Shown: positions 41,572-59,792 of the stretch, piece by piece | How positions within the stretch are numbered: the stretch's first letter is position 1 | Layout: each line of letters opens with the position of its first letter | Source: Mesorhizobium sp. CAU 1732 | GTDB lineage: Bacteria > Pseudomonadota > Alphaproteobacteria > Rhizobiales > Rhizobiaceae | DNA length: 64,000 nucleotides | Assembly (NCBI RefSeq): GCF_039888675.1 | Contig: NZ_JBDQQR010000001.1 | Location: forward strand, 3,558,301 to 3,622,300 | Reading direction: 5' to 3' | Made by a program: the position numbers and the translations under genes | The notes under the pieces: generated by a model | Told to the model about the DNA's origin: nothing | Databases searched by the model: none | The model's input: the letters and a program-made list of their open reading frames with translations, nothing else

Positions 41572-41590
41572 CATCGAAAGGGAGAAACTT

Positions 41591-44683: not shown

Positions 44684-44748
44684 TCTGGTATTTTTTCCTG
44701 TTTGCCGCTGTTCGCCTGAGGGGAACAGTTGTCTACTGAACCGAAAGT

Positions 44749-45003
44749 CTAACTGCCCTGCTTGGGACAAAAGTCTTCGAAGGTGACGATGGCGCGGCGG
44801 TTCTGGCGCAAGGCCAGCTTTCGCATCCAGCCGGTCCTCTCGCCGAACTTGGCGCGGCACCAAGCGCCGTCGGTCGCCATCAAGCACAGTTGCCGGTCTG
44901 GTCGAGTCCGGTGCCGCGCGTGCCAAGTTGGTTGCGGTTGTCGGCCTGGTCGGCCTGGTCGGCGTCGAGGCTGTTGCCCGCGCCGTTCCCTTGACGTCCG
45001 AGA
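44749..45003 (-). pseudogene. frameshifted SH3-domain protein relic
   Basis: One frame reads TTATNLARAAPDSTRPATVL, like the first strands of a bacterial SH3 domain. Another frame, from 44880, continues MATDGAWCRAKFGERTGWMRK to a stop at 44749, like the end of the same domain. A frameshift near 44,885 separates them, and no signal peptide or start was found. A 9-bp tandem repeat (GTCGGCCTG, 2.7 copies, 44940-44963) lies in its 5' part. Confidence 0.4.
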
Positions 45004-45063
45004 CCGCGCGCACTGCCTGCGGCTTCAAACTGAATCTGACACGCCAAAGCTTCTGGAAATGGA

Positions 45064-45092
45064 CGCCGGAGCTGGCGAACCAGGCTCCGGCG
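45064..45092 (-). terminator. hairpin after dctP
   Basis: Arms CGCCGGAGCTGG (45064-45075) and CCAGGCTCCGGCG (45080-45092) pair with one bulged base around a CGAA tetraloop. On the minus strand it begins 14 bases after the dctP stop. It may reduce read-through into the downstream aldehyde dehydrogenase gene. Confidence 0.6.
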
Positions 45093-45106
45093 CCCAAACG
45101 TGGCCT

Positions 45107-46102
45107 TTACGGCTTGGCAGTCGCGGCCATAGCAGCCCGGGCCTGCTCGACCAGATCGATGCCGATCTTCTCGCTGTACTCCGTCACGACAGGCGCAACG
45201 CGTTCGCTCATGGCTGCGATCGCTTCAGGCGTGGGTCGGGTAATCTTGAACCCCCTCGCTTCGAGCTCCGCCTCCAGATCCTCTGCCGCCTTGCGGGAAA
45301 GATCCCGTTGGAAGGCTGCCGATTCCTTTCCCGCTTCCATGACGTGTGCCTTGTCTTCCTCGGAGAGGCTTCCAAACCACTTCTGGCTGGCGAGGAGGAC
45401 GAACGGCGTATAGACATGGCCCGTCTTGGCCAGATGGCTCTGCACCTCATAGAACCTCGCGGTATAGATGAGAGCGTATGGTGTCTCCTGAGCATCGACG
45501 GCGCGATTTTCAAGCGCGCTGTAAAGCTCAGGCCAGGGAAGCGGCGTCGGATTGGTTCCCAAAGCCGACCAGGTCGCAAGGAACAATGGGTTAGGGATGA
45601 CCCGGATGTTGAGCCCTGCCATATCCTCTACGGTGTTGACGGGACGAATTCCGTTGGTCATGTGGCGGAACCCGTTGTCCCACCACGCGAGCCCCTCGAT
45701 GCCGGTCTTCTCCTTCAACTGTGCAAACAGCTGCTCGCCGACCGCGCCGTCCATGACGGCATCCACGGCGGCGAAGTCTTTATAGAAGAACGGAAGGTCG
45801 TAGATCATGAATTGCGGAACGACGCCGACCAGGTTTGGCGTCGGGCCAACCATGATGTCGATGAAACCAGCCTGGACCGACGCCTGCATTTCGGGCTCGT
45901 TGCCGAGCACGCCGTTGCCGAAGGTATCGATCTTGATGCGCCCGCCGGTCTTTTCTTCCACCAGCTTCGCAAAATGGCGCGAAGCCTCTCCAACCGGATG
46001 ATCTTCCACAGGTACGTAGCCCAGGCGCGGATTCTGAGCCATCGCTGGAGCGGCCGCCAGGAGCCCTCCAACAAGTGCCGCAGTTAGAAGCAGTACTTTC
46101 AT
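45107..46102 (-). CDS. dctP: orphan TRAP transporter substrate-binding protein (DctP)
   Basis: The 331-residue periplasmic protein has a signal peptide (MKVLLLTAALVGGLLAAAP, cleavage after AMA) and the DctP pattern (FAKLVEEKTGGRIKIDTFGNGVLGNEPEM, RPVNTVEDMAGLNIRVIPNP with the ligand Arg). GGGAGG is 7 bases before the ATG. No intact permease genes adjoin it; directly upstream is a decayed dctM end. Its likely membrane partners are dctQM at 55,088-56,907, which lack a binding protein of their own nearby. Confidence 0.94.
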   Translation of the reverse strand: MKVLLLTAALVGGLLAAAPAMAQNPRLGYVPVEDHPVGEASRHFAKLVEEKTGGRIKIDTFGNGVLGNEPEMQASVQAGFIDIMVGPTPNLVGVVPQFMIYDLPFFYKDFAAVDAVMDGAVGEQLFAQLKEKTGIEGLAWWDNGFRHMTNGIRPVNTVEDMAGLNIRVIPNPLFLATWSALGTNPTPLPWPELYSALENRAVDAQETPYALIYTARFYEVQSHLAKTGHVYTPFVLLASQKWFGSLSEEDKAHVMEAGKESAAFQRDLSRKAAEDLEAELEARGFKITRPTPEAIAAMSERVAPVVTEYSEKIGIDLVEQARAAMAATAKP

Positions 46103-46105
46103 AGT

Positions 46106-46336
46106 TTAACCTCCCAAGAACGGTTCACAGGAACCAAGATGCAGGGACTGTCTCCAATCAGGGAACAGGACCGGCGGTACGAAAATTGCGCCCTCGGCCG
46201 TTGAAGCAAAGGGTACGTTGCTTTCATTGATCACCGCGTTGAGCGCGGGATCGACAGGCGGCGTGATTGTCTCAATTGCTGCGGTTGCGATGAACGCAAC
46301 CCCAGACTGCACCGGATCGACGCCTGCCACCTCCAC
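46106..46336 (-). pseudogene. decayed 3' end of a TRAP dctM gene
   Basis: The 76-codon frame reads AGVDPVQSGVAFIATAAIETITPPVDPALNAV. It aligns with the C-terminal region of DctM, for example AGIDPVYFGVMFIMTAAIGMITPPVGTVLNTV in the intact dctM at 55,088. The glycines of the motif are mutated and no membrane-compatible remainder or proper start exists. It ends 3 bases before the dctP ATG, where an intact dctM would sit in a dctQ-dctM-dctP order. Divergence from the local dctM suggests an old, different copy. Confidence 0.6.
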
Positions 46337-46393
46337 CAAAGGTGTATGGGACCAGTGGCGCGCCCTCGCGATAAGGACGGGCCACCGGCAAGA

Positions 46394-47356
46394 TCAATCC
46401 AGGTATCCCTTGCCCGAGATCGGGGGCGTTGGGGGCTGGTTGTTAACCGGCCAGTGATGCGATCCGCCAGGATAGCCGTTGATGGCAATCCGCGTGTCGA
46501 ATCCCGGACAATGGTTCGCCGCCGAATGCCAGCGGCCGGCCGGGACATAGACAATATCGCCGGGTTCCGAGACGAAGAAGGGCACGCCTTCGATGTTGTA
46601 GCTGATCTGACCTTCCATGATGAACCAGAATTCAGCATAGTCGGCGTGGAAATGTCCGATGCTTGTGGCGGGCTGAGGGTCGCAATTGCGCGCCTGGCCG
46701 CGGATGCGGTTAACGAACATGCGATCATCACTTACGAATGCGCCGGCTGCGGGCGAAGCAAGGAAGTCGTAGAAAATAGGCTGAGGCTGTCGCGTCAAGC
46801 TATCGGGGGCATCAAGCCGGCTCAGGTACCAATTCATCCTCGACGGCGGTTTCGGCAATGTTGCCGAGCTTTCCTCGTAAAGAATGGTGGCGTCTGCATT
46901 GAATATCTCGAAGTGCAGTGACGGCACCGTACCCACGTTCTTCATTGAAAACGCCCGGCGGTACGGAACCCGGACCATAAAGCCCTTGGTGGCGACAAAC
47001 GGCTCGACACCCTGGATAGTGACTTCAATCTGCCCCTCCCAGACAATGAAGGCGGTTTGGTGATCCGCCACTCGCAAGGTCGGCGTGGAATCGAACACCG
47101 CCAACTGGTGCCATGCAGCCCTCAGGTGCTTGTCTTCGACGACCGGTACACGCCAGGTCTTGGACTGATTTGGGGGTGCGATTTTGGCACGCACGTCGGC
47201 AATCGTCGTACGCGGCTTATGCGGGGCCTTGTATGGCGCCGCCGCTACCGGCTTCGGCGTCCAGGCATTCACCGTCTGCGCGATAGCTCCGGTAACCGCT
47301 ACCCCCCCGATCGCCAGCGCGGCCACAATGGCCAATGCGCCTTTCCATAAATTCAT
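46394..47356 (-). CDS. exported bicupin protein
   Basis: The 320-residue protein has a signal peptide (MNLWKGALAIVAALAIGGVAVTG, cleavage near AIA-Q) and two cupin barrels. The first, around FIVWEGQIEVTIQGVEPF, is degenerate. The second has the metal-binding pattern GHFHADYAEFWFIMEGQ and PAGRWHSAANH. Bicupins include dioxygenases, decarboxylases and sugar-acid binding proteins; periplasmic location is unusual. GGAGGAG lies 9 bases before the ATG. It heads the operon with dctP and aldehyde dehydrogenase, so it may act on the substrate before uptake. Confidence 0.9.
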   Translation of the reverse strand: MNLWKGALAIVAALAIGGVAVTGAIAQTVNAWTPKPVAAAPYKAPHKPRTTIADVRAKIAPPNQSKTWRVPVVEDKHLRAAWHQLAVFDSTPTLRVADHQTAFIVWEGQIEVTIQGVEPFVATKGFMVRVPYRRAFSMKNVGTVPSLHFEIFNADATILYEESSATLPKPPSRMNWYLSRLDAPDSLTRQPQPIFYDFLASPAAGAFVSDDRMFVNRIRGQARNCDPQPATSIGHFHADYAEFWFIMEGQISYNIEGVPFFVSEPGDIVYVPAGRWHSAANHCPGFDTRIAINGYPGGSHHWPVNNQPPTPPISGKGYLD

Positions 47357-47437
47357 GGCAGTCACTCCTCCTTTGTCTGCTCAATCGATAGAGACATCGC
47401 GCTCCCGACCCGAAAACCAAAGCACCTCCCAGGCCTC

Positions 47438-47462
47438 GTCCATAATATGGACGCGATGTCCA
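47438..47462. promoter_or_regulatory. IclR-type operator 1 upstream of the bicupin operon
   Basis: Three half-sites stand in series: GTCCA (47438-47442), TGGAC (47448-47452) and GTCCA (47458-47462), each separated by 5 bases. The core TGGAC-GCGAT-GTCCA is the 15-bp palindrome also found at 48754 and 57567. It lies 82-106 bases upstream of the bicupin start. Confidence 0.75.
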
Positions 47463-47606
47463 ACAATGCATAGTGGTCAGACTATTAATGGTTGTCAACA
47501 CTTCATCGCCGCACCTCAAAGTGCCTGATGCTTGCCGGTTGGGTTCACATCATGGCGCTGCTTTCTGCGCACAGTGCAGGAGGCCTCGGCGATCGGTCGG
47601 ATACTG

Positions 47607-48551
47607 CTAGGGTACGGGCGTGATCGCCGCTCCACTCTGGAACCAGGCGATCACGTTCCGGGCCACGAGGTCGGCCATAGCGGTGCGCGTACTGACCGAT
47701 GCGGATCCGATGTGCGGCAGGATCGTCAGGTTATCGAGCGCCAGAAGATCGTCGGAGACATTCGGTTCATCCGCGAGCACGTCGAGACCGGCTGCAGCAA
47801 TGACCCCTGTGCGCAGGGCGCTGACCAGGGCATCCTCGTCCACGACGGTTCCACGGCCGACATTGATGAACACGCCCTCGGGCCCGAGGGCGGACAGCAC
47901 CTCGGCATTCACGCTCTTTGCGGTCGACGCGTCCCCCGGAACGATGGAGATGAGCACATCGACGGCACCTGCAAGTTCCAGCAGTGAAGGAAAGTAGTCG
48001 TACACGACCCCTTCCGCGGGCCGCCGGCTGTGATAGGCGATGGGCAGACCGAATGCTTCGATCCGCCGGGCGATGCAGCGGCCGATCCGCCCCATTCCGT
48101 AAATGCCGACCTTGCGGTTGCGAAGCGTCAGACGGCTGAGCGGATAGTCCGACGCCTTCCACCGCCCCTCGCGAACGAAGGCTGCTGCTTGGGGTATCTC
48201 CCGGACGACGCTGATAAGGAGCCCCAGCGTGAGGTCGGCGACCTCCTCGTTGAGGACATCAGGGGTGTTCGTGACGATGATATTCTTGCTGCGCGCATAG
48301 GCAGCATCCACCGCGTCGTAGCCGACGCCGTAGCTGGCGATGATCTCAAGGTTGGGAAGGGCGTCTATGAACTGCCGATCGATTCTGGCGCGACAGGCTA
48401 CGCCACGAATTGAAGCCCGGACCTCTGGGGACAGGTGGCCCTGCAGGTCGCAGTCAGGGATTTCGACCAGGTTGAAATGCGTTCCGAGCATGCGCCGGGC
48501 ATGCTCGTGCATCCAACCAGGTATCAGCACGGTGGCGGCGGGTTTCGACAA
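47607..48551 (-). CDS. D-isomer-specific 2-hydroxyacid dehydrogenase
   Basis: The 314-residue enzyme has the NAD(P)-binding motif GIYGMGRIGRCIARR, the substrate Arg in NVGRGTVVDEDAL, the Glu in LADEPNV and the catalytic His in LPHIGSAS. It reduces a 2-oxo acid such as glyoxylate or hydroxypyruvate, or the reverse. A TTG at 48551 with AAGGA upstream is the best start; the frame is open 51 codons further. It is divergent from the Fe-alcohol dehydrogenase with a shared operator. Confidence 0.92.
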   Translation of the reverse strand: MSKPAATVLIPGWMHEHARRMLGTHFNLVEIPDCDLQGHLSPEVRASIRGVACRARIDRQFIDALPNLEIIASYGVGYDAVDAAYARSKNIIVTNTPDVLNEEVADLTLGLLISVVREIPQAAAFVREGRWKASDYPLSRLTLRNRKVGIYGMGRIGRCIARRIEAFGLPIAYHSRRPAEGVVYDYFPSLLELAGAVDVLISIVPGDASTAKSVNAEVLSALGPEGVFINVGRGTVVDEDALVSALRTGVIAAAGLDVLADEPNVSDDLLALDNLTILPHIGSASVSTRTAMADLVARNVIAWFQSGAAITPVP

Positions 48552-48753
48552 CGATTTTCCTTCAGGTTGGGGCACTGCCGGCGAGAATTGCCGCAAGTGA
48601 ATCAGTGGCTGTCGCGCGGAAGGCCAGTGGATTGCGCAATATTCCCCATTGGCTTCGAGTTCGCGGCGGCTGGCCAGTTCTTCCGGCAAAACCGGAATCT
48701 CCACAGTTCCTGTACCATCTCATCCAAGACCGCCACCCAAAACGACCACAATA

Positions 48754-48768
48754 TGGACAATGCGTCCA
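48754..48768. promoter_or_regulatory. IclR-type operator 2 (divergent dehydrogenase genes)
   Basis: The palindrome TGGAC-AATGC-GTCCA lies in the 363-base gap between the 2-hydroxyacid dehydrogenase and the Fe-alcohol dehydrogenase. Weaker half-sites (GACCA at 48744, TGGTA at 48774) continue the 10-base periodicity. A second related element, GTCCA-TATAA-TGGGC (48873-48887), lies 27 bases before the plus-strand start. Confidence 0.75.
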
Positions 48769-48914
48769 CAAATTGGTAGAACCCTGAGGCTTCCTTGTCA
48801 AGGCGGCGGACACACCGCCAGCACGAAGCGGAGCTTGACAAGTGTGCAGTTCTAACGATGATTGGGCAACATGTCCATATAATGGGCAGAAATGGGGCCA
48901 GGGAGAACGGCAGC

Positions 48915-50042
48915 GTGCATACTATAACCTACCTTACAAACATCAGCTTCGGGCTTGGAGCGTCCGAGTCATTGGCAGAAATACTGCGCGAACTCGGCGT
49001 ATTGCGCCCTTTGGTAATCAGCGATCACGGCATCAAAACTGCTGGTCTTCTTGAGCGCCCGAGCTTCGCGTTCCTGAAAACGGCGCCGGTCTTCCTGGAC
49101 GTACCCACCAACCCGACGGAGAGCGCAGTTGCTGCTGGCCTTGAGCTGTACAGGCAAGGCGGCTGCGATGGCGTAGTGGCGATCGGCGGGGGCTCTCCGA
49201 TCGATTTGGCCAAGGGCGTGGCGCTGCTGGCCACGCACGATGGTGAACTCGAGGGTTACGCAGCGATTCTGGGCGGTGTGGCACGCATCACCAGCGCGGT
49301 GGCTCCGCTCGTGGCCATCCCGACAACGGCTGGTACCGGGTCCGAAGTCGGACGCGCGGCATTGATCACGCTGGATGACGGCCGCAAGCTCGGATTCATC
49401 AGCCCGTTCCTCATCCCCCGCAGGGCGGTTTGCGACCCGGCCCTGACAATGGGGCTCCCCCCCGCCCTGACGGCCTCGACAGGTCTTGACGCACTGTCGC
49501 ATTGCATCGAGACGTACCTTTCCCCCCGCTATAATCCGCCTGCCGAGGCGATCGCCACCGATGGCTTCCAGCGCATCTGGCAGGCTTTGCCTGTCGCCTA
49601 CGCGGATGGCGCGAACGCGGAGGCGCGGACCGAACTGATGATGGGTGCCCTCGAAGGGGGCATGACGTTCCAGAAGGGTCTCGGCGCCGTCCATGCCCTC
49701 AGCCATGCACTGGGCGGCCTCAAGGAGGCCAAGCTTCATCATGGGACTCTCAACGCCATCCTGATGCCGACCGTCCTTCGGTGGAACGTGGAAATTGAAG
49801 CCGTGGCCAGGAAGGTCAGCCACCTCGAGAGCCTGGCCGGACTTGAAGGGACGACGCTCGCGGACGCGCTGGACGACTTGAACCGTCGGTTAGGCATTAC
49901 GCCCAGACTGTCCGAACTGGGCGTGACCCGGCAGGTCATCGATTGGGTGTGTGAGCGAGCCCTTGCAGACCACAGCCATCCCACCAATCCTCGCCCGCTG
50001 ACCAAGGAAGACTACGCCGCGATCCTTGAGGCCGTCTTCTAG
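48915..50042 (+). CDS. iron-containing alcohol dehydrogenase
   Basis: The 375-residue group III dehydrogenase has the NAD-binding GVVAIGGGSPIDLAKGVAL, IPTTAGTGSEVGRAA, and metal ligands in TGLDALSHCIETYLSPR, HALSHALGG and HHGTLNAILMP. Members include 4-hydroxybutyrate, lactaldehyde and maleylacetate reductases. The start is taken as GTG 48915 with GGGAG 9 bases upstream; an ATG at 48882 is possible but would include the operator-like element. It is followed 38 bases later by an SDR gene. Confidence 0.93.
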   Translation: MHTITYLTNISFGLGASESLAEILRELGVLRPLVISDHGIKTAGLLERPSFAFLKTAPVFLDVPTNPTESAVAAGLELYRQGGCDGVVAIGGGSPIDLAKGVALLATHDGELEGYAAILGGVARITSAVAPLVAIPTTAGTGSEVGRAALITLDDGRKLGFISPFLIPRRAVCDPALTMGLPPALTASTGLDALSHCIETYLSPRYNPPAEAIATDGFQRIWQALPVAYADGANAEARTELMMGALEGGMTFQKGLGAVHALSHALGGLKEAKLHHGTLNAILMPTVLRWNVEIEAVARKVSHLESLAGLEGTTLADALDDLNRRLGITPRLSELGVTRQVIDWVCERALADHSHPTNPRPLTKEDYAAILEAVF

Positions 50043-50080
50043 GCTGCGAACCCTCAGAGAAAGAACAAGGAGGTCATTTC

Positions 50081-50827
50081 GTGAGACCGATTGTGATCGT
50101 AACGGGCGCGAGCCACGGCATCGGTGCCGCAACGGCTCGGCTGTTCGCCGCCGAAGGCTACGATGTCTGCATAAACTACCTCTCGGACACCACCGCTGCG
50201 TCCGAAGTCGTCGAGGCCTGCAAGGCCGCGGGCGCCCGCGCCATCGCGGTGCAGGGAGACGTGGGCAAGAGGGAGGACATTCAGGCTCTGTTCAGCGCCT
50301 GCGACGATGAACTTGGGCGAGTAACCTGCCTGGTCAACAATGCCGGGATCATCGGGAAAGCCGGAAAGATAGAAGAGTTGCAGCCTGCGGTGCTGGAAAC
50401 CGCCTTCAGGATCAACGTCTTCGGCGTCATGTACTGTATTCAGGAGGCCGCGAAACGCATGTCCACCCGCAAGGGTGGCCAGGGCGGGACGATCGTGAAC
50501 ATGTCGTCGCTGGCCGCATTCCTCGGCAGTCCCAACGAATATGTCCACTATGCCGCCACCAAGGGGGCAGTGGAATCCATCACATTCGGCGCCGGCAAGG
50601 AGCTGGCGCCGGAGGGCATCCGCGTGAATGCCATACGTGTCGGGACCACCAACACGCGGATACACACGCAGGGCGGAAATCCCGAGCGGCCGGCCAGGAT
50701 CGCGGCGGCGACCCCCATGGGGCGCATCGCGGAGCCTGACGACATCGCGCGCGCAGCGCTGATGCTTGCGTCTCCCGGTTCCGGGTTCATGACAGGCACC
50801 CTGATCACGGTGGCCGGAGGGCTGTGA
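50081..50827 (+). CDS. short-chain dehydrogenase/reductase (glucose dehydrogenase/FabG-like)
   Basis: The 248-residue SDR is intact: IVTGASHGIGAATARLF cofactor motif, LVNNAGIIG, NMSSLAAFLGSPNEYVHYAATKGAVE with catalytic Ser, Tyr and Lys, and the C-terminal LITVAGGL. It begins with GTG preceded by AAGGAGG. It is co-directional with the Fe-alcohol dehydrogenase and probably co-transcribed, in the same catabolic regulon. The substrate is unknown. Confidence 0.94.
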   Translation: MRPIVIVTGASHGIGAATARLFAAEGYDVCINYLSDTTAASEVVEACKAAGARAIAVQGDVGKREDIQALFSACDDELGRVTCLVNNAGIIGKAGKIEELQPAVLETAFRINVFGVMYCIQEAAKRMSTRKGGQGGTIVNMSSLAAFLGSPNEYVHYAATKGAVESITFGAGKELAPEGIRVNAIRVGTTNTRIHTQGGNPERPARIAAATPMGRIAEPDDIARAALMLASPGSGFMTGTLITVAGGL

Positions 50828-51035
50828 GGCCAGGCGAGAAAATCGCAGAGGAGTGCCAGGTGAGGCTGGCACTCCTGCCAAAGCTCGTCGCGCCTGCCGT
50901 CTCGGAACAGGACCTGCATTGACCGTCAGCGCGAACCTCGAACTGGTCGCGCCTCCGGCACCGTTCGGTTTTCCGTGGCCGAAAGGTCATCTTCCGGCAC
51001 ATCAACCGATGCGCCGAAGATCCATTCATATGTTC

Positions 51036-51935
51036 TCATTCAAGCTCGATCGCCGCGCGACGCCAGTCGAGCACTCTGTAGGGTGCCTCGTCCGCGTTCG
51101 ATACAAGCATCAATGCCTCGAACGATTCGCTGTAGCCCGACTGCAGGGTCGTCCTGAGATCGACGCGCCAACTCGGTGCCTGCGCCAGCGTGTTGAAGGT
51201 CACGCCCGCAAGCGATCGGTCGAGTTCCCCGCGCGACAAGCGGCCGGCGTGGAAATCCATGATCGCCTTTCGCGCCGAGGGGGGCAGGCCAGGAATCTCG
51301 CCCAGCAGTGCATCATCGAGCGCTTCCAGGCGAACGCCTGCCAAGCCGGAGGAGACGGTGACATAGGGTTCGATGGCGATGGCCATGTCGGGCGTTATTC
51401 CCGGGAAGGCGGCGAGTTCTGAGACCGTCTGAAACAGCTTTGTGTCGTCCCCAGCCTGCTGCGGAGCGGAACCGGCCGGCTGTCCGTTCGGCCGAGTCGG
51501 GCCGGCGCGCTGGCCGATGATCTTTGTCGCCAGATCGTCCGCGGTTCCGGGAGCGGCGCCGGCGGCGCGCAACGCGCCAACGATCAGCGGCTGCTCGGCG
51601 GTGTTGAGATCGATCCGCAAGGCTTCATTTGTCGCAGAGACGGAAACAACCCCGGTCGGCAGGGTGATCGTTGACGAGATCTGATCGCTCAGCGTACCCA
51701 CGCCGTCGGCTGGGCCGGCGCGAATCTCGGCCGCTGCCTGCGAGAGCCCGGCTTCCGCCAGAATGCGCGCCGACGCCTTGTCCTCCGTGACGCGCACGCT
51801 GGCCACGACACCAGTCATCTGCACGCGAAGGATGACGGCAAGGAACCCCAGGAAAATCATAATCCACAGGACGCTGACGAGGATTGCACCCCGCCGACTC
51901 GTTGACGAGTTCACGCCCATTGCCGCAAGACCCAT
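51036..51935 (-). CDS. gspK: type II secretion minor pseudopilin GspK
   Basis: The 299-residue protein has a prepilin-type N-terminus (SRRG cleavage site followed by AILVSVLWIMIFLGFLAVIL) without the Glu at position 5 that is also missing in other GspK proteins. The large C-terminal part has the helix-hairpin-helix-like NTAEQPLIVGALRAAG and FPGITPDMAIAIEPYVTV. GspK caps the T2SS pseudopilus. It is the last gene of a gspD-peptidase-gspK operon; other pseudopilin genes are absent here. The start among several is uncertain (51935 chosen). Confidence 0.88.
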   Translation of the reverse strand: MGLAAMGVNSSTSRRGAILVSVLWIMIFLGFLAVILRVQMTGVVASVRVTEDKASARILAEAGLSQAAAEIRAGPADGVGTLSDQISSTITLPTGVVSVSATNEALRIDLNTAEQPLIVGALRAAGAAPGTADDLATKIIGQRAGPTRPNGQPAGSAPQQAGDDTKLFQTVSELAAFPGITPDMAIAIEPYVTVSSGLAGVRLEALDDALLGEIPGLPPSARKAIMDFHAGRLSRGELDRSLAGVTFNTLAQAPSWRVDLRTTLQSGYSESFEALMLVSNADEAPYRVLDWRRAAIELE

Positions 51936-52010
51936 TTCGGCCCCATGCCTCGCCACGAAAAGTTACGCCACGACCTCAAGACTTTGCCCTCCCCGGCTCA
52001 ATCAATGTGA

Positions 52011-52571
52011 TCACCATGCGGCCGGCAGCCACGCCCAGACGATGACCAGTGCCGGCGCGAGGAAGGTGCCGAACGGAACCTTCGCCACGGCACGCAACGG
52101 TCTGCGCAGGCGCATCCCCCGCAACGCGATGAAAATCAGCGCGGCCGATGCGGCAAGCATGATCTGAACGCCGGTCCCGGGAATCCCGACGAGCAGTGCT
52201 GATGCCCCAAGCAGCTTGATATCGCCCATCCCGAGCCCGGTCTGCCCGCGCAGGCGCTCGTAAAACATATCGAACAGCCACAGCGCCCCTCCCAGCAGCA
52301 GAGCGCCGCCGGCCCGCACGGCGAGTACCTCGGGGTCTCCCGACGCGAACAGCCACTCGGCAAACCCGACAAGAAGGATGCCAAGCGTGTAGCGGTCGGG
52401 TATGAGCATCGTCGCGAGATCGTGGACCGCGATCGCCGCGGCGAGACAGCATAGCGCAAGCATCGACGCGACGAAGAATGCGGGGCCTCCGATGAGAGCG
52501 GGCACGGTACCGGCGGCGAGCGCGGCTGCGACGGCTGCGGTAGACCGCCCCCGTGCCCTCAGAAGCTTCAT
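52011..52571 (-). CDS. type IV prepilin peptidase, A24 core only
   Basis: The 186-residue membrane protein has the two catalytic aspartates of A24 peptidases: Asp 51 in AVHDLATMLIPDR and Asp 117 in GMGDIKL. It lacks the N-terminal methyltransferase domain with Cys motifs found in PilD/GspO, so it is a CpaA/minimal type. Between gspD and gspK, it presumably processes the T2SS pseudopilins. Its ATG overlaps the gspD stop (ATGA). Confidence 0.9.
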   Translation of the reverse strand: MKLLRARGRSTAAVAAALAAGTVPALIGGPAFFVASMLALCCLAAAIAVHDLATMLIPDRYTLGILLVGFAEWLFASGDPEVLAVRAGGALLLGGALWLFDMFYERLRGQTGLGMGDIKLLGASALLVGIPGTGVQIMLAASAALIFIALRGMRLRRPLRAVAKVPFGTFLAPALVIVWAWLPAAW

Positions 52572-54781
52572 TCGATGATCGTCTTGGCCGGCCGCTGCAG
52601 CGGGACGTTCAGGGACGGTTCGTTCATCAGCCGCAATTGCGACCGCATCTGCTCAGCCACATGTTGCGCATCCAGGCTGTCACGGATGACCTGTGGCCGG
52701 ATCAGGATGATGAGTTCGGTGCGCGCCCCGGAATTCTGGTTGGACCGAAACGCGTCGCCGATCAGCGGAAGGTCGCCGAGAACCGGCAGGCCGTCACGGC
52801 CGCGCTGCTGGCGTTCGCTGATCAGGCCGCCGAGCATGACGGTCTGGCCGCTGGTCACCGAAACGGTCGAGCTGACCTTTCGTTGCGATATTGTCGGCGT
52901 CAGAGACTGCGCCTGGCTTCGCTGGACGGAGCTGATCTCCTGCTCGACGACCAGGTTGATCGTGCCGTTGCCCGTGATGCGCGGGAGGACCTTCAGGATA
53001 ACGCCGGTGTTGCGGAACTCGACATTGTTGACGATCGGCGCATCCGGATCGGTCACCGACTGCGCAGTGCGCGTCACGATCGGGATCTCGTCACCGACCT
53101 GCAGCACCGCCGGCTTGTTGTCGAGGACGACGATCGACGGCGACGACAGCACCTTCACCTCGGTGATACCACGCAGGGCGTCGAGGACGACGCGCGGCTC
53201 GGTTTCGGGGCCAAGCAGCAGGTTGAAGCCGGGAAGCGTTCGCGAAAGCACGGCCGCGCCGGCTTCCTTGAACAAGCCCATCGATCCTTTGTTGCCGCCC
53301 AGGCCGAGATCGTTGGACGTCAGGAAGAACTGCACGCCGTAGCGCAAGTCGTTGGTCAGTGTCACCTCGGCGATCGTCGCTTCGATAGCGACCTGCTCTT
53401 GAGGACGATCGAGCGCCGTGATCGCCTGTTCGATCACCCGTTGCTGGTCGGGTCGCGCGAAGATGAGAATGGTGTTGTTTTCCGGGTTCGCGGTGATGCG
53501 CACGCCGCCTCGGGACAAGTTCGCGTTTTCCGCCCCGCCCGCGATCGGCGTTTCATCCGCCATGCTCTGATCCGGCGTCGCATCGGCCGACTGCCAACCG
53601 TCTGCGCCCTGATTCTGGCCGTCAGCCTGCGAGCCGGGCGGAAACTGCGAGGCCGGCTCTTCCGAAGCCGACGATGCTGAGGAGCCGTTGAATATCTCGT
53701 TGACCATCGATGCAAGGCGCCGTGCCTGCAGGTGCTGGACCTTGTACACCCGCAAATTGGAGGCAGCCGCGTCGATCCGGTCGAGCCGCTGGATCCAGCT
53801 TGCCGCGCGCTGCAACTGGTTGCGCGTCTTCGCCACCACCAGAATCGAATTGCTGCGCTCGACAGGCTGGACCCTGATCGTGTTGCGCCCGCGACCGCCC
53901 TCCCCGATGTCGAGCACGCGGTTCAGCTCCGGCATCATGGTGGCCGCGCTGGAATTGTGGACGGGGAAAATACCGACCGACTGGTCCGCCAGCCAATCCT
54001 GGTCGAATGAGCGCGCTGCTTCGATCGCCGCGGTCCGCTCCGCCGCCGTCCCCTGGAAGATCAGCGCGTTGCGGCTGGGATCCTCGCGCACCATGCCGGG
54101 ACGGGCGACGAAGTTTTCGAGCAGCGGCAGGATCGTGCTGGCGGAAACGTTTTGCAGGGGAAGCACCGTGACGGCGTAGCCGGGCTGGATGGTTGTGCCC
54201 TGGTCGAGTTCGGCGGTTCCGAACGCTTCAGCCGCGGGCACAAGCCGCAGACGGTCGCTTTCGCGCACCATGGCCACGCCGTTGCTGCGCAGCGCGGTTT
54301 CGAGCATGGTCAGGATTTCCGCGGCCGGCGTAGGCTTCGACGTCGTGATCGAAACACTGCCCGCGACCCTGGGATCGATCGAGTAGCTGATTCCCAGCAC
54401 CTCCCCCAGAACGGTACGGGCCGCAACCTTGACCTCTGCGTCCTCGAGATTGACTTCGAACTCTTCGCCGCTCAGCCGCTCAAGCGATCTGCGCTCGCCA
54501 GCAGTCAGCTTCTGTTGATAGCCGTAGTATACCTCACCCTGCCGATTGTTCTGCCCGCGGCCAAAGCCGAGGTTCGACAGGAAGCCGCCGCCGGACGGCT
54601 TGCGCGCACTCAGATCTGCGTTCGAGACCTTGTCCAGAGGATCCGGCCGGCCGGCAGCATCTTCGAGATAGTCACTGGTGGAGGTACACGCGGTCACGGC
54701 CGCCAGAGCGCAGGCCGCCAAACATCTGCGAACCCACACGGCATAGGCATTTGGAGCGCCGCCCTGCCGACCTACCCTCAC
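52568..54781 (-). CDS. gspD: type II secretion system secretin GspD
   Basis: The 737-residue outer-membrane secretin has a lipoprotein-type signal with Cys 32 (AVTAC), an N0 domain (VNLEDAEVKVAARTVLGEVLGI), N1-N3 repeats (VTVLPLQNVSASTILPLLENFV; VYKVQHLQARRLASMVNEIF) with a Ser/Gln-rich linker, and the secretin core (VAIEATIAEVTLTNDLRYGVQFF, VPRT-type region, VTSGQTVMLGGLI). The lipobox suggests it needs no separate pilotin. The start appears to be GTG 54781. It heads the gspD-peptidase-gspK operon. Confidence 0.95.
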   Translation of the reverse strand: MRVGRQGGAPNAYAVWVRRCLAACALAAVTACTSTSDYLEDAAGRPDPLDKVSNADLSARKPSGGGFLSNLGFGRGQNNRQGEVYYGYQQKLTAGERRSLERLSGEEFEVNLEDAEVKVAARTVLGEVLGISYSIDPRVAGSVSITTSKPTPAAEILTMLETALRSNGVAMVRESDRLRLVPAAEAFGTAELDQGTTIQPGYAVTVLPLQNVSASTILPLLENFVARPGMVREDPSRNALIFQGTAAERTAAIEAARSFDQDWLADQSVGIFPVHNSSAATMMPELNRVLDIGEGGRGRNTIRVQPVERSNSILVVAKTRNQLQRAASWIQRLDRIDAAASNLRVYKVQHLQARRLASMVNEIFNGSSASSASEEPASQFPPGSQADGQNQGADGWQSADATPDQSMADETPIAGGAENANLSRGGVRITANPENNTILIFARPDQQRVIEQAITALDRPQEQVAIEATIAEVTLTNDLRYGVQFFLTSNDLGLGGNKGSMGLFKEAGAAVLSRTLPGFNLLLGPETEPRVVLDALRGITEVKVLSSPSIVVLDNKPAVLQVGDEIPIVTRTAQSVTDPDAPIVNNVEFRNTGVILKVLPRITGNGTINLVVEQEISSVQRSQAQSLTPTISQRKVSSTVSVTSGQTVMLGGLISERQQRGRDGLPVLGDLPLIGDAFRSNQNSGARTELIILIRPQVIRDSLDAQHVAEQMRSQLRLMNEPSLNVPLQRPAKTIIE

Positions 54782-55087
54782 CTACGCACCCCACGCAAAC
54801 TGGCATCCGGCTCCCAAAAACCTGGAACGGTACCGTCTATCAAACGCCTGATAACCATAAAGCACGCTTTCTGCTTCCCGCTCGGGCACCGGACACCTCG
54901 TCGACGTCGGTCAGCCCGAGGTAGGTGAAGAACTCAAACATGTGCAGCGATTTGACATTGGCCTACGCCAGCGGCTGCAGCTCCTCCCGCGTCAGGATCC
55001 CGCCGCAGTCCTCGTGAGAGGACCTGTGCGGCATGGGTGGAAAAGCCATCGTCGAATGTCCAGTCCAACTCCTCCACGGATTGAGTC
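54782..55087 (-). other. gap with possible degenerate coding relic
   Basis: Between dctM and gspD the minus strand contains short coding-like pieces: VEELDWTFDDGFSTHAAQVL in one frame, HEDCGGILTREELQPLA up to an amber codon (TAG, 54963-54965) in another, and ANVKSLHMFEFFTYLGLTDVDEV after that amber. They could be parts of one decayed protein of a family I do not recognise. No intact gene is present. Confidence 0.3.
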
Positions 55088-56365
55088 TCAATGGAACCAG
55101 GACGCTGGCACGGTGACCAATGCCGGGAACAGCACCAGCAGCACGATGAGAGACATCTGGGCCAGAAGGAAAGGCCAAACCCCCTTCAGAGCCGATCCCA
55201 TCGAAACTTGGCTGATCCCGCACACCGTATTGAGGACCGTTCCTACAGGGGGCGTGATCATGCCGATGGCGGCAGTCATGATGAACATGACCCCGAAATA
55301 GACCGGGTCGATCCCGGCCGCGATGACGAGCGGCATAAGGATTGGCACCAGGATAGTGATCGAAGGTGCGAAATCGAGCACCATGCCGATGATAAAGATC
55401 GCCAGAACGATCATGCCCATCAGCAGGATCGGCATATCGATAAATGGAGCAAGAAGACTGATGAGCTGGCCGGGCAGATTGGTAATGGTCATCATGAAGC
55501 CGGTCACCATAGAGGCTGCCACCAGCAGCATGATCACCGCTGTCATGCGACCGGCGTCGAGCAGTGCGTGATAGAGCAGCCGCGGCGTCAGCTCCCGATA
55601 CACAACCAGCCCCACGAACAGAGCATAGGCGGCGGCAACGACGCCGGCCTCCGTGGGGGTGAAGAGGCCAAACCGCAGTCCGGCCAGGATAATCACCGGC
55701 AGCATCAACGCCCAACCGGCGGTCATGATGGCTTTCGGGATGTCCCTTCGCGGAAGTTTGGGCTGGACCGCCGCCGTTTCCTTTTTCGCGACGAACCACC
55801 AAGCCACCACGAGGCTCAGCCCCATCATGATCCCTGGCACGATTCCGGCCATGAACAGGCCGATGATGGAAATGTTTGCGGTGACACCCAGGATGATGAA
55901 TCCGACAGAGGGCGGGATCACAGGGGCGATAATGCCTGTCGCCGCGATCAAGCCTGTGGCTCGATCCATGTTGTAGCCCGCATCCCGCAAAAGGGGGATC
56001 AGCATGACCGCCAGCGTCGCCGTATCGGCGATGGCGGATCCGGAGAGGCTGGCCATCACCAGGCCCGTGCCGATGACCACGTAACCGAGGCCGCCACGCA
56101 GGTGACCGACGAGCGCCAGGGCCATCGTCACGATGCGGCGGGAGAGGCCACCGGCGTTCATGAGCTCGCCGGCAATGAGAAAGAACGGGATCGCCATCAG
56201 CGGATAGCTGTCCGCGCCATTGACCAGACGTTGGGCCAGGATTTGCGCATCCAGATTGCCCATCATCAGCATCAGCGCGACCGCCGACAGCATGAGGGCG
56301 AAGCTGATGGGTATCCCGATGCCGATCGCACCAAGTAGGGAACCGAGAAATACCAAGCCGCTCAC
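55088..56365 (-). CDS. dctM: TRAP transporter large permease (DctM)
   Basis: The 425-residue permease has the DctM signatures LIAATGIIAPVIPPSVGFIILG and TAAIGMITPPVGTVLNTVCG. It begins with GTG overlapping the dctQ stop (GTGA). No dctP follows; the nearest unpaired dctP is at 45,107 on the same strand. It lies in the operon DUF1330-dctQ-dctM downstream of operator 3. Confidence 0.96.
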   Translation of the reverse strand: MSGLVFLGSLLGAIGIGIPISFALMLSAVALMLMMGNLDAQILAQRLVNGADSYPLMAIPFFLIAGELMNAGGLSRRIVTMALALVGHLRGGLGYVVIGTGLVMASLSGSAIADTATLAVMLIPLLRDAGYNMDRATGLIAATGIIAPVIPPSVGFIILGVTANISIIGLFMAGIVPGIMMGLSLVVAWWFVAKKETAAVQPKLPRRDIPKAIMTAGWALMLPVIILAGLRFGLFTPTEAGVVAAAYALFVGLVVYRELTPRLLYHALLDAGRMTAVIMLLVAASMVTGFMMTITNLPGQLISLLAPFIDMPILLMGMIVLAIFIIGMVLDFAPSITILVPILMPLVIAAGIDPVYFGVMFIMTAAIGMITPPVGTVLNTVCGISQVSMGSALKGVWPFLLAQMSLIVLLVLFPALVTVPASWFH

Positions 56366-56907
56366 TGAAGTTTCTCCTGAGTTATAGCGGGGCTTACGGC
56401 CAGTGGGGCCTCATCGGACTTTGCTCCCGCCCATGTGCTGGGCAGGGTGCCGCGCAGCCCGCGCCACAGCTCAAGAAGGAGAACCAGAGCCATCATGAGG
56501 GCAGCGACGAGCCCCGCGGCGTAAGTGAGGCCGACGGGAAGTCCCGTCAGTGGAGTGATATTGCCCCATTCGATGCGGGTAAGTGCCCAGCTACCCTTTG
56601 CGAGGAGCCAGCAGCACCAAAGCATCAGGCCGTATGAAGCAAGAAAGCAGGCGAAGCGCGCCCTTTGAGGCAACCGCGCGACCAGCGCGTCCACGCTGAG
56701 ATGCGCGCCCTTGGCAAGGCCCACGACGGCTCCCAGGAAGATGATCCAGACGAGGATCACACGGGAGATTTCAACGGAATACGAAATGCCTGAGCTGAAG
56801 CCATACCGCAGCACGACATTAGTAAAGATCAGGACGCTCATGACGGCCATGCCGATGACGACAAGGGCGTCAAAAAGCTTGAAAAGCCACTTTAGCGGGG
56901 TGGGCAT
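56362..56907 (-). CDS. dctQ: TRAP transporter small permease (DctQ)
   Basis: The 181-residue protein has four membrane helices and the DctQ pattern (VLRYGFSSGISYSVEISRVILVWIIFLGAVVGLAKGAHLSVDAL). ATG 56907 has AGGAG upstream. It is upstream of and overlapping dctM. Confidence 0.94.
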   Translation of the reverse strand: MPTPLKWLFKLFDALVVIGMAVMSVLIFTNVVLRYGFSSGISYSVEISRVILVWIIFLGAVVGLAKGAHLSVDALVARLPQRARFACFLASYGLMLWCCWLLAKGSWALTRIEWGNITPLTGLPVGLTYAAGLVAALMMALVLLLELWRGLRGTLPSTWAGAKSDEAPLAVSPAITQEKLQ

Positions 56908-57131
56908 GACTGCTCCTAAAAAGGCTGTGGGTGCATGCAACGATCCTCGCGGCACTCTGACGAGCATCCGGCGACCGTCAGCAGGGCGCTTCCAGCATGC
57001 GGATCGGGCATAAGCACCCGATCGCCCGATGAAGGCCTGCCCTGCTCATCCGGTCGAACAGCGCGCAAGGGGGTAAAGACGACGGCCCCTCCGACCAGTT
57101 CGATAGGAGGTTTAAAGCGATGATTCCGGTG

Positions 57132-57422
57132 TCACACACCTTCAACCACGGCAAGATGTGCCTTGGCATGCTTCTCGCGGGCCTTGATAGCCGTCTGATA
57201 CTCGGGAGAGTTGTAGCAGGCGAGAGCGGTCTCGTAGTCCTTGAACTCGATTACCGCCAGGCGGTTCGCGTCAGGACCTTCCATAACCTGGCTCGTTCCA
57301 GCGCGAACGACAAAGGTCGCCCCGTACTTGTCGAACGCTGCCTTGTTCAAGGCAATGTATTCCTTGTAGCCTTCTTGGTTTGCAATATCGACCATTGCAA
57401 CCCAGTATCCCTTTTTGGTCAT
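57132..57422 (-). CDS. DUF1330 family protein
   Basis: A 96-residue protein of the DUF1330 ferredoxin-like (dimeric alpha-beta barrel) fold: YWVAMVDIANQEGYKEYIALNKAAFDKYGATFVVRAG, the central RLAVIEFKDYETALACYNSPEYQ and the C-terminal helix. Members occur next to catabolic genes but have no established reaction. GGGAGG precedes the ATG. It is the first gene before dctQM (224-base gap) and divergent from iclR. Confidence 0.93.
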   Translation of the reverse strand: MTKKGYWVAMVDIANQEGYKEYIALNKAAFDKYGATFVVRAGTSQVMEGPDANRLAVIEFKDYETALACYNSPEYQTAIKAREKHAKAHLAVVEGV

Positions 57423-57566
57423 TTGCTTCCTCCCTGCAGAACTTCCCACGCCCTCTCGCGAAAGATACGGACGGCCCGCTGCGTTCACATGTGGTGCACA
57501 CGAGTTTGCCGTTGATCCTCCTCGATCACACGACTAGCATCGACATCATTAACGCTGACTACAATA

Positions 57567-57581
57567 TGGACAGCCTGTCCA
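57567..57581. promoter_or_regulatory. IclR-type operator 3 (iclR/DUF1330 divergent promoter)
   Basis: The palindrome TGGAC-AGCCT-GTCCA, preceded by CAATA as in operator 2, lies 52 bases upstream of the iclR start and 144 bases upstream of the DUF1330 start. This is where an autoregulated IclR repressor or activator would bind. Confidence 0.75.
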
Positions 57582-57633
57582 TGAACGTGTAGTACCCACA
57601 TGTTCTGTTGTCAAGCTCGCAAGGAGATGCGCC

Positions 57634-58443
57634 ATGGACCGGAGTGATATTCAGGACGAAGCCGATTCTAGGGCGCCTACTCACGTGCAGGGAGCGGCAT
57701 CGTTCTCGAAGTTCATGACGGTGCTGCAGATCATTGCCGACACCCCCGGAACACTGGACATTGCCCAACTGACCAAGCGCGCGCCATTTCCCCGGGGAAC
57801 GGTGTACCGCCTCGTTTCGGCGCTCATCGCGGAGGGGCTCATCACCCAGTCGGGAGAGAACGGAACGTTTCGCCTGGGGCCACGCCTCCTCCATCTTGCG
57901 GCCAAGACCTGGGAAGATTCCGACCTGCGGACGATCGCAAGGGATTTTCTGATATCGCTCCGAGACGCGACGGATGAGGCAGTGCACCTCGCGGTGCCGA
58001 GCAACAACCGGATGGTCTATATCGACAAGCTGGTCGGCTCCAGCACGGTTCAGATGAAAACCAGCATTGGCGGCCAGGTCGAACTTCACTCCACATCCGT
58101 GGGCAAGGCGTGGCTGTCCGGCCTTCCGGACCAGCGGCTCATGGAAGTTCTCAAGAGCCTGGATTTGAGGCGTCATACCGCCAAGACGTTCACGACACCC
58201 GAAACGCTGTTCGATGAATTGAAGCGGACGCGCGAGCAAGGGTTCGCGTTTGATGACGAGGAGAACGAGCCCGATATCCGGTGTCTCGGCAGCCCGATCT
58301 TCAATCGCTTGCGGGAACCGATTGGAGCGGTAAGCATCAGTATGCCCGTGTATCGGCACGACGCGCGGCGCCACGAGCTCTGCGCAAGGCTGGTGCGTCA
58401 AACGGCGAAACTGATCAGCACCGAATTGTCCAGGATGGTGTAG
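57634..58443 (+). CDS. IclR-family transcriptional regulator
   Basis: The 269-residue protein has a winged helix (FMTVLQIIADTPGTLDIAQLTKR, FPRGTVYRLVSALIAEGLI) and an IclR effector domain (VELHSTSVGKAWLSGLP, GFAFDDEENEPDIRCLGSPIFN, GAVSISMPVYR). AAGGAG is 9 bases before the ATG. From the operator distribution it is the likely master regulator of the bicupin/dctP/aldehyde dehydrogenase, hydroxyacid dehydrogenase, Fe-alcohol dehydrogenase/SDR and DUF1330/dctQM transcripts. Confidence 0.95.
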   Translation: MDRSDIQDEADSRAPTHVQGAASFSKFMTVLQIIADTPGTLDIAQLTKRAPFPRGTVYRLVSALIAEGLITQSGENGTFRLGPRLLHLAAKTWEDSDLRTIARDFLISLRDATDEAVHLAVPSNNRMVYIDKLVGSSTVQMKTSIGGQVELHSTSVGKAWLSGLPDQRLMEVLKSLDLRRHTAKTFTTPETLFDELKRTREQGFAFDDEENEPDIRCLGSPIFNRLREPIGAVSISMPVYRHDARRHELCARLVRQTAKLISTELSRMV

Positions 58444-58486: not shown

Positions 58487-59068
58487 GTGGGATTTCATCA
58501 CTACGCGCGGGCTTTGCTTGCTTCTGGCATGTTTATTTTTGTTTCGGCGGCGCACGCAGAAGAAGAGCGGAGAGAGCTTGGTCCCCATGTCCATGGACAC
58601 GGGACATTGGCGATTGCTGTCGAGGGCAACAATATTCAGATGGAGCTCGTTGCTCCTGGCATGGATATCGCCGGGTTTGAGCACGAAGCTGAAACCGCTC
58701 GGCAAAAGAGAGCTGTCGAGGCCGCGCTTGCCGACCTGAAGGAACCGTTGAACCTCTTCGAATTGCCTGACTCCGCGGGGTGCGCCGTCACCTCCGCCGA
58801 CGTCAAAATCGTCGCGGAAGAGCACGAAGACGACGACGCCCCGGCCGAAGCTGACAAAACCGCGGGGATCGAAGAGCACGACGACCATCACACCGAGTTC
58901 CGGGCCACTTACGCTTTCGCCTGCGCGGATGCCGCCCAGGTCAGGTCGATAAATTTCCGCTTCTTCGATCGCTTCCGGGATTCCTGGGAACTCAACGTGA
59001 CGTTCATCGATGCGGACGGGGAGACGGCCTTCGCGGTGTCCCGCGAGTTTCGCAACATGGAAAGATAG
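58487..59068 (+). CDS. zrgA: DUF2796 periplasmic zinc-binding protein (ZrgA-like)
   Basis: The 193-residue protein has a signal peptide (cleavage after AHA, about residue 24) and a DUF2796 domain. The metal-binding HVHGHG is at the mature N-terminus, and an acidic/His-rich stretch (EEHEDDD, EEHDDHH) lies in the middle. DUF2796 proteins include ZrgA of the Vibrio ZrgABCDE zinc uptake system. It begins with GTG after GGAG. The three following genes (ATPase, permease, DUF3299) complete the same set. I saw no clear Zur box upstream. Confidence 0.88.
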   Translation: MGFHHYARALLASGMFIFVSAAHAEEERRELGPHVHGHGTLAIAVEGNNIQMELVAPGMDIAGFEHEAETARQKRAVEAALADLKEPLNLFELPDSAGCAVTSADVKIVAEEHEDDDAPAEADKTAGIEEHDDHHTEFRATYAFACADAAQVRSINFRFFDRFRDSWELNVTFIDADGETAFAVSREFRNMER

Positions 59069-59069
59069 G

Positions 59070-59792
59070 GTGGAAGCGCACGCCTTGACCGACGCCGTGA
59101 GCTTGCGCGGCGTCGAATACAAGTGGAACGGGCGAGATGCGTTCGCTCTATCTGTCGGCGCCCTCCAGATTCCCCGTGGCGAGCGTCTCCTGCTGCTCGG
59201 CCCATCCGGCAGCGGAAAGTCGACGCTGCTCAGCCTGTTGACCGGGATCGTGGCGGCGCAAGCCGGAAGCCTTGAAATCCTGGGGCAACGGCTTGATGCA
59301 CTGGGCAGCAGCGGGCGCGATCGGTTTCGCGCTGAACACTTTGGGATCATCTTCCAGATGTTCAATCTTCTTCCCTACGGCGCCGTCATCGACAATGTGC
59401 TGCTGCCGCTCAGCTTCGCACCGGCGCGTCGCACCCGCGCGACGGCCGCGGGCGGCACTGAGGGCGAAGCGCGGCGCCTCCTGTCGGCGCTGGGACTTCC
59501 GGCGGACATCGGGCGGCGAAAGGCGGCCACGCTGAGCGTCGGTCAGCAGCAACGCGTCGCGACCGCGCGGGCGCTCATCGGCTCACCCGAGATCATCGTT
59601 GCCGATGAGCCGACATCGGCTCTCGACGACGACCGGCAGCAGGACTTTCTCGACCTTCTGTTCGGCCAGATCGATGCCACGCAGGCGACCCTGATCATGG
59701 TCAGTCACGACCGGCGCCTGGCGCGACATTTCACCAGAGTGGTCGAGCTCACCGACATCCTGGCAACGTCGCAGCGCGAAGGCGCCGCGTGA
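59070..59792 (+). CDS. ABC transporter ATPase of the zinc (Zrg-like) system
   Basis: The 240-residue LolD/MacB-type ATPase has Walker A GPSGSGKST, signature LSVGQQQRVATARAL and Walker B IIVADEPTSAL. GTG 59070 lies one base after the zrgA stop. It would energise the FtsX-like permease downstream, whose start overlaps its stop (GTGA). Confidence 0.93.
   Translation: MEAHALTDAVSLRGVEYKWNGRDAFALSVGALQIPRGERLLLLGPSGSGKSTLLSLLTGIVAAQAGSLEILGQRLDALGSSGRDRFRAEHFGIIFQMFNLLPYGAVIDNVLLPLSFAPARRTRATAAGGTEGEARRLLSALGLPADIGRRKAATLSVGQQQRVATARALIGSPEIIVADEPTSALDDDRQQDFLDLLFGQIDATQATLIMVSHDRRLARHFTRVVELTDILATSQREGAA

Follow-up and report, generated by a model that had tools for sequence, protein, structure and literature searches.

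The 64,000-nucleotide stretch of Mesorhizobium sp. CAU 1732 analyzed here (contig NZ_JBDQQR010000001.1, positions 3,558,301 to 3,622,300, hereafter the window) contains a gene coding for an IclR-family regulator, a set of genes for a transporter and several dehydrogenases, and a repeated operator-like element in front of them. The regulator gene, iclR (57634-58443, + strand), codes for a protein of 269 amino acids that scores above the cut-offs of both PF09339 (N-terminal HTH_IclR domain, 34 bits, cut-off 22) and PF01614 (C-terminal IclR_C domain, 161 bits, cut-off 24) and thus belongs to the IclR family. Homologs with 70-92% identity were found in 18 related loci, while the next best IclR protein of the same genome has only 30% identity. 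On the - strand there are genes coding for a DUF1330 protein (57132-57488, PF07045), the small permease DctQ (56362-56967, PF04290) and the large permease DctM (55088-56365, TIGR00786 above cut-off) of a tripartite ATP-independent periplasmic (TRAP) transporter, a D-2-hydroxyacid dehydrogenase (47607-48704, PF02826 and PF00389), a bicupin protein (46394-47365, PF07883, with an N-terminal stretch that resembles a signal peptide by eye), and the TRAP solute-binding protein DctP (45107-46102, TIGR00787 above cut-off). On the + strand, an iron-containing alcohol dehydrogenase (Fe-ADH, 48915-50042) is followed by a short-chain dehydrogenase (SDR, 50081-50827, PF13561). The Fe-ADH falls in the 4-hydroxybutyrate dehydrogenase family (NF058672, 540 bits, cut-off 500), which names an activity by family only. 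Translation of the Fe-ADH gene probably begins with the GTG at 48915, giving 375 residues, because the protein aligns from there to a paralog of 375 residues; D232, H236, H300, and H315/H316, presumably the metal ligands, are invariant in 10 aligned sequences. The open reading frames of two related loci (L065 and L080) suggest that the 2-hydroxyacid dehydrogenase starts about 50 codons further in.

The 15-bp palindrome TGGACNNNNNGTCCA has three exact matches in the window (47448, 48754, and 57567), where 100 shuffled versions gave a mean of 0.09 and a maximum of 1. A sequence-only reading of this DNA had proposed these TGGAC-N5-GTCCA copies as operators of a single IclR regulon, and it was right that all are intergenic, that AATA precedes each, and that half-sites continue at 10-bp spacing (GTCCA at 47438, GACCA at 48744); at 57557 the third half-site is only a degenerate GACTA. 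The AATA and the extra half-sites are parts of one 25-bp element, TGGAC-N5-GTCCA-N5-TGGAC in the direction of the target gene, in which the first spacer is free and the second is conserved. Four such elements are present. Operator A (47438-47462, - strand, TGGAC-ATCGC-GTCCA-TATTA-TGGAC, 15/15 half-site letters) stands before the bicupin gene and dctP, operator B (48744-48768, - strand, TGGAC-GCATT-GTCCA-TATTG-TGGTC) before the 2-hydroxyacid dehydrogenase gene, operator C (48863-48887, + strand, TGGGC-AACAT-GTCCA-TATAA-TGGGC) before the Fe-ADH and SDR genes, and operator D (57557-57581, - strand, TGGAC-AGGCT-GTCCA-TATTG-TAGTC) between DUF1330-dctQM and iclR. The sequence-only reading had overlooked operator C and so counted one site too few; the Fe-ADH operator is separate from that of the 2-hydroxyacid dehydrogenase. 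A matrix built from 58 sites reads TGGRCA-N3-TGTCCA-YATTR-TGGNC with positions 1, 3, 11, 13, and 15 invariant, and because its sites were chosen by half-site score, the half-site letters are favored in it and the spacer letters are not.

In the whole genome, the 15-bp palindrome occurs at 8 places in 5,438,500 bases, compared with 3 for a reversed control pattern. Three of the 8 fall within 10.1 kb of each other, and the other five lie at C1:358191, C1:1710349, C2:187662, C3:253, and C4:380937 (C1 being the contig of the window), from which about 0.06 would be expected per 64 kb by our own arithmetic. Allowing up to two mismatches, the 15-bp frame was not enriched in the window (31 matches, 28 expected), and therefore only exact or three-box matches were counted as evidence. 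The three-box pattern with at most one mismatch was found at only five genomic places, four in the cluster and one before a second Fe-ADH gene (C3:15792-15816), so the motif is not common throughout the genome, which is what the sequence-only reading had named as counting against it. It could still be argued that the three palindromes arose by chance and have no function, since a pattern of ten fixed bases has chance matches, as shown by the reversed control and by four of the five outside matches, which adjoin no target-type gene; only C3:253 was retained as a candidate. With 0.09 matches expected in the window and the operator conserved in 18 other genomes, this explanation is already refuted by conservation, and we give it practically no weight.

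When species genomes were searched with an alignment of eight IclR proteins, 78 loci were obtained. They comprised a near set of 18 loci with 70-92% IclR identity, to which the window was added (19 loci), and a distant set of 17 loci with 44-56%; the site scan covered these two sets and not the other 43 loci (26-36%, one of them a partial match at 45%). A near-set site had to match at least 12 of the 15 half-site letters and to point the same way as the gene. Gene matches below 50% identity or 130 bits were dropped (e.g., the 2-hydroxyacid dehydrogenase of L074, 41%), as were gene copies that lacked a site and had less than 150 bases of upstream sequence. An operator was found before 58 of the 63 target gene copies kept, namely 10 of 13 for DctP, 3 of 3 for the cupin protein, 10 of 12 for the 2-hydroxyacid dehydrogenase, 16 of 16 for the Fe-ADH, and 19 of 19 for DUF1330. 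One more copy, a 2-hydroxyacid dehydrogenase gene, has a weaker site with 11/15 letters, and four have none; two of the five exceptions are dctP genes preceded by a cupin gene with an operator (the window and L066). For the distant set, the region considered ran from 420 bases before the gene to 200 bases into it, and sites in either orientation counted; on these terms, iclR or the Fe-ADH gene is preceded by a site with 12 or more letters in 14 of the 17 loci. Sites with at least 13 letters numbered 81 in 728,743 bases of 36 sources, compared with 0-7 for ten scrambled half-sites (overlapping registers counted).

The specificity of the element was also examined in 15 whole genomes with the pattern TGGRCNNNNNGNCCAYAWTRTGGNC. 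With at most one mismatch there were 20 matches (18 places, as two pairs overlap), all in the 7 genomes with an IclR homolog of at least 52% identity, that is, this IclR or a homolog with 52-56%, and 19 of the 20 fall inside iclR clusters. The 8 genomes without such an IclR gave no match at this level. With at most two mismatches, the 15 genomes gave 49 matches, against 9 for the reversed control.

Several observations weigh against a single regulon under this IclR. In the near set, the 2-hydroxyacid dehydrogenase gene of L070 has no site at the threshold (a version with two mismatches is present), and dctP of L080 has no site of its own. In the distant set, L095, L096, and L098, which have the three lowest IclR identities, have no site (the IclR match of L098 leaves the DNA-binding domain uncovered). 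In the distant loci L083, L084, L085, L088, L090, and L092, a site accompanies iclR, with none directly before the Fe-ADH gene. Fe-ADHs above the NF058672 cut-off are found without an operator (at most two mismatches) in G004 (its second one), G002, G048, G010, and G022, of which G010 and G022 have no close IclR. At 12/15 letters the scrambled controls reach 4-58 against 132, so single 12-letter sites are weak. Moreover, the genomes and loci overlap (G035 is the same organism as L070, G004 as L071, G001 as L079/L097, G003 as L082, and G002 as L088) and L088/L089 and L093/L094 are near twins, so the counts from the genome scan, the near set, and the distant set are not independent. As for promoters, the -10 elements are weak and a consensus scan recovered only that of the Fe-ADH gene; the number predicted does not exceed that in shuffled sequence (3 found, 3.6 expected).

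From the operators that are observed, with their conservation, orientation, spacing, and linkage to iclR, we infer that this IclR protein is the binder. Another regulator that travels with the cluster might bind the sites instead: the second Fe-ADH operon on contig C3 has a site, although the 19.9 kb around it showed no IclR gene. The sites, however, follow iclR across genomes, disappear where IclR identity is lowest, and have the layout of IclR operators, which makes another regulator improbable. It is likely, in our judgment, that the three-box operators and the adjacent IclR form one regulon, with four copies in the window and at least one on C3, and that this regulon is probably repressed. 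The proposal of one regulon under the adjacent IclR is thus strongly supported by the comparison, except for the aldehyde dehydrogenase that it included, and the regulon appears to extend outside the window.

A TTGACA resembling a -35 element lies upstream of each operator, at 47493-47498 (- strand, starting 36 nt upstream of operator A), 48796-48801 (- strand, 33 nt, operator B), 48835-48840 (+ strand, 28 nt, operator C), and 57609-57614 (- strand, 33 nt, operator D). The one at operator C belongs to the predicted Fe-ADH promoter, with a 16-nt spacer to GATGAT, and the GTG start at 48915 leaves 27 bases between operator C and the Fe-ADH start codon. In the 19 near loci, TTGAC begins 27-39 nt upstream of 55 of 59 sites. 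An operator that starts about 28-37 nt after the start of TTGAC would cover the transcription start, which favors repression. Thus, the operators most likely overlie the transcription start, and the IclR protein most likely represses without ligand and releases on binding a pathway intermediate. Repression is not certain, because IclR activators such as PcaU and PobR also exist. Operator D ends about 50 bases before iclR, and therefore autoregulation may also occur.

In the mechanism proposed here, the IclR protein (57634-58443) would bind a 25-bp operator of three half-sites with alternating direction and a 10-bp period. The four window operators would control bicupin-dctP, the 2-hydroxyacid dehydrogenase gene, Fe-ADH-SDR, and DUF1330-dctQM, operator D would also sit in the iclR promoter and mediate autoregulation, and at least one further copy on contig C3 would control the second Fe-ADH gene together with a tctCBA transporter. 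A hydroxy or sugar acid might then be imported by the TRAP transporter and oxidized by the Fe-ADH, the SDR, and the 2-hydroxyacid dehydrogenase.

The three-box architecture is already known. According to Suvorova and Gelfand (2021, PMC8222616), PcaU, PobR, and HmgR have three-box operators, such sites are predicted for 32 orthologous groups, and the type consists of a palindrome plus an external direct half-site, with the extra repeat required for PcaU binding. The window operators share with those of PcaU, PobR, and HmgR the three boxes of alternating direction, and differ in their half-site, which is TGGAC/GTCCA here and GTTCGAT-like there (Table 1 of that paper). The group 1 consensus of the same authors, GTYCRYW3RYGRAC, is fitted by eye by GTCCATATTATGGAC (box 2-box 3), so the element has three half-sites of alternating direction with one pair of group 1 type and can be counted as three-box. 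Compared by eye with their group 2 consensus, TGRAACAN1-2TGTTYCA, TGGACA-N3-TGTCCA has the same TG...CA frame and a width of 15, with the inner letters shifted by one (PMC8222616). The TGG...CCA layout, taken as typical of IclR operators in the sequence-only reading, does fit E. coli IclR (TGGAAATNATTTCCA, Table 1), while many IclR motifs given there are of other kinds (PMC8222616). The system also differs from PcaU, PobR, and HmgR in its non-aromatic gene set, in an operator at the predicted transcription start, and in its protein, which scores 136.1 bits against a cut-off of 284.75 for the PcaR/PcaU/PobR subfamily (TIGR02431). Filing in that subfamily was dropped on this score, despite the same three-box plan.

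The window runs up to the edge of contig C1, where it breaks off within pntB (63880-64000), and contig C3 begins inside pntA (C3:1-180, L058), the Pnt names being given by eye. Since L067 has pntAB between a T2SSE gene and a C3-type site, C1 and C3 are probably neighbors, roughly 2.5-3 kb apart by an estimate from L067. After pntA, C3 carries a gene for an IlvD/EDD-family dehydratase (C3:345-2147) and then type II secretion genes (T2SSF, PilN-like), and 9-16 kb in there is a one-strand run of Fe-ADH2, tctC, tctB, tctA, and a flavoprotein gene. An operator and a TTGACA are in the usual place before Fe-ADH2, which also passes NF058672 (560 bits against 500). Eight proteins of this genome match the model; the two that pass have the operator, and the six lower matches, some of them fragments, do not. 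Fe-ADH2 is 79-82% identical to the Fe-ADHs of the distant clusters L082, L086, L091, and L097, compared with 75% to that of the window. Because the Fe-ADH-SDR-tct runs of L082 and L086 (tct named by eye from likeness to C3) have an IclR gene beside them, and the next IclR of this genome has only 30% identity, the Fe-ADH2 operon probably answers to the IclR of the window. A second operator-like stretch in the opposite direction (L202:7949-7973) has no likely gene behind it by eye. PMC8222616, which covers 181 orthologous groups, mentions DctPQM as well as COG3181 and COG3333 in IclR regulogs. 

The site before the dehydratase gene (C3:243-267) is weaker, with two mismatches, and points toward pntA; it is also present in L065, L066, and L067. 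COG3181 and COG3333 are Tct proteins. In L065 and L066, the T2SSE gene and the C3-type site lie too close together to accommodate pntAB, yet the site still precedes the dehydratase gene; for this reason the dehydratase, not pntAB, was kept as a candidate; the dehydratase gene of L066 was not found in the stretch examined, so this choice rests on L065. The C3 dehydratase is only a candidate member of the regulon. Between the start of the dehydratase gene and the weak IclR-type site lies a palindrome, TTGTCCGACAA (G000:C3:287-297, L058), which looks like a GntR-type operator. It recurs in L066 and L067 and is absent from L065.

Several neighboring genes were left out of the regulon. The aldehyde dehydrogenase gene (43247-44689, - strand, PF00171, NCBIfam models below their cut-offs) lies about 420 bases behind dctP, and none of the 12 near loci with dctP has it (the other 6 of the 18 loci do not include dctP). 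No operator of at least 12 letters was found near it or near a second IclR gene (40735-41571), and both were excluded. The membership claimed for the aldehyde dehydrogenase in the sequence-only reading is therefore unsupported, with only possible read-through remaining. The second IclR gene lies between genes for a thiamine-diphosphate enzyme and another aldehyde dehydrogenase (region 38832-43036), and its NCBIfam scores are below the cut-offs, the best being PcaR/PcaU/PobR. Interspersed among the regulon genes are genes for type II secretion (prepilin peptidase, secretin, T2SSE, T2SSF), located at 51036-54781 and 61844-63796 and continuing into G000:C3 (L058). The secretion genes at 51036-54781 were rejected as targets, as no operator of at least 12 letters lies between them. 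The protein at 51036-51956 has no Pfam match and was taken for GspK by eye. Homologs of the secretion genes are found in the cluster in 6 of the 18 near loci (L064, L065, L066, L067, L069, and L077). The stretch 58487-59792, between iclR and the T2SSE gene, codes for a zinc uptake protein of the ZrgA family and for the ATPase of an ABC transporter, the latter kept at that place in L064-L067 and L069. Between the bicupin gene and dctP, a stretch (46160-46342) with 47% similarity to the end of DctM, also seen in L066 (1613-1822), is perhaps the relic of a lost dctM.

What we infer about the substrate points in two directions: the likeness of DctP and the dehydratase favor a sugar acid or keto-deoxy acid, the family of the Fe-ADH favors 4-hydroxybutyrate, and neither reading explains all genes. 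The first has a little under an even chance of being correct; here the regulon would handle a sugar acid or 2-keto-3-deoxy acid imported via DctPQM, the dehydrogenases would act on it, and the C3 dehydratase would be a further member. The nearest solved relative of DctP is 7bbr (E 1.4e-72), which we take to be CxaP of the sugar-acid TRAP system of Advenella. The dehydratase belongs to an NCBIfam dihydroxy-acid dehydratase subfamily and is closest among solved chains to galactonate dehydratase (7m3k, 1046 bits) and then to 5oyn (IlvD/Edd family), whose substrate is presumably D-xylonate. An AraD1/GguC gene lies in the same cluster in Devosia (L080). In a non-phosphorylative (Weimberg-like) pathway, a sugar-acid dehydratase, a keto-deoxy-acid dehydratase, and a 2-oxoglutarate semialdehyde dehydrogenase act in turn; the candidates for these steps here would be the C3 dehydratase with its weak operator, an AraD1 without operator, and an aldehyde dehydrogenase with 524 bits against a cut-off of 770. 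To our knowledge, no known sugar-acid route uses an Fe-ADH of this family, which counts against this reading, as do the strength and direction of the dehydratase site. In addition, the nearest dehydratases of G035 and G004 (86 and 85%) and an 86% paralog in this genome have no operator, and AraD1/GguC of this genome lies elsewhere (C1:2370480) without one and was rejected as a member. In PMC11668362, 7bbr is reported bound to 2-keto-3-deoxy-D-gluconate and CxaP of Advenella is described as a sugar-acid binder; the same source notes that TRAP ligands in crystals may be co-purified. An AlphaFold model of DctP from 9 aligned sequences was unusable (mean predicted local distance difference test score 48).

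Alternatively, the regulon may oxidize 4-hydroxybutyrate or a similar omega-hydroxy acid, with the Fe-ADH forming succinate semialdehyde and an aldehyde dehydrogenase forming succinate, as in the BlcR-controlled blcABC operon of Agrobacterium. BlcR is an IclR-type regulator and BlcB is an Fe-ADH, and the type of BlcR is borne out by the match of 3mq0 to the IclR of the window (E 1.9e-13). Both Fe-ADHs pass the 4-hydroxybutyrate dehydrogenase cut-off, and the operator precedes the Fe-ADH gene in every near copy kept. PMC6402643 describes BlcR as a tetrameric repressor released by gamma-hydroxybutyrate. Under this reading, the two systems would share an IclR-type repressor of a 4-hydroxybutyrate route. 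However, BlcR is only a distant relative with weak protein similarity, and a family name is not a tested activity. The window cluster differs in its TRAP transporter and extra dehydrogenases; a 4-hydroxybutyrate route would leave the SDR and the 2-hydroxyacid dehydrogenase without a function. No lactonase, such as the BlcC that accompanies the dehydrogenases in the Blc system, was found by Pfam among the 13 genes of 43247-58443 (the gene at 51036-51956 having no match), and a genome-wide search was not made. The aldehyde dehydrogenase is also not a conserved member. We thus regard the 4-hydroxybutyrate route as possible and rather doubtful. A similarly tentative proposal is that one IclR governs two alternative uptake branches, TRAP (DctPQM) and tripartite tricarboxylate (TctCBA), each with its own Fe-ADH copy. 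In an undescribed route that oxidizes a small sugar acid or hydroxy acid, the Fe-ADH, the SDR, and the D-2-hydroxyacid dehydrogenase would act one after another, and the C3 operon, which lacks an IclR of its own, would have come under the IclR of the window.

No description of the half-site letters or the gene set was found in the literature, the search not extending to subscription papers, RegPrecise, or the supplements of PMC8222616. Our results predict the operator of a group of IclR proteins in rhizobia and their relatives down to the single letter, and name a small gene set, the Fe-ADH above all, that would share a common substrate to be sought among a few acids. If the protein is a repressor induced by an acid, it could, with its tight three-box site, serve as a biosensor part. 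The group may also be a test case for the idea, put forward in PMC8222616, that the third box decides between two dimer arrangements.

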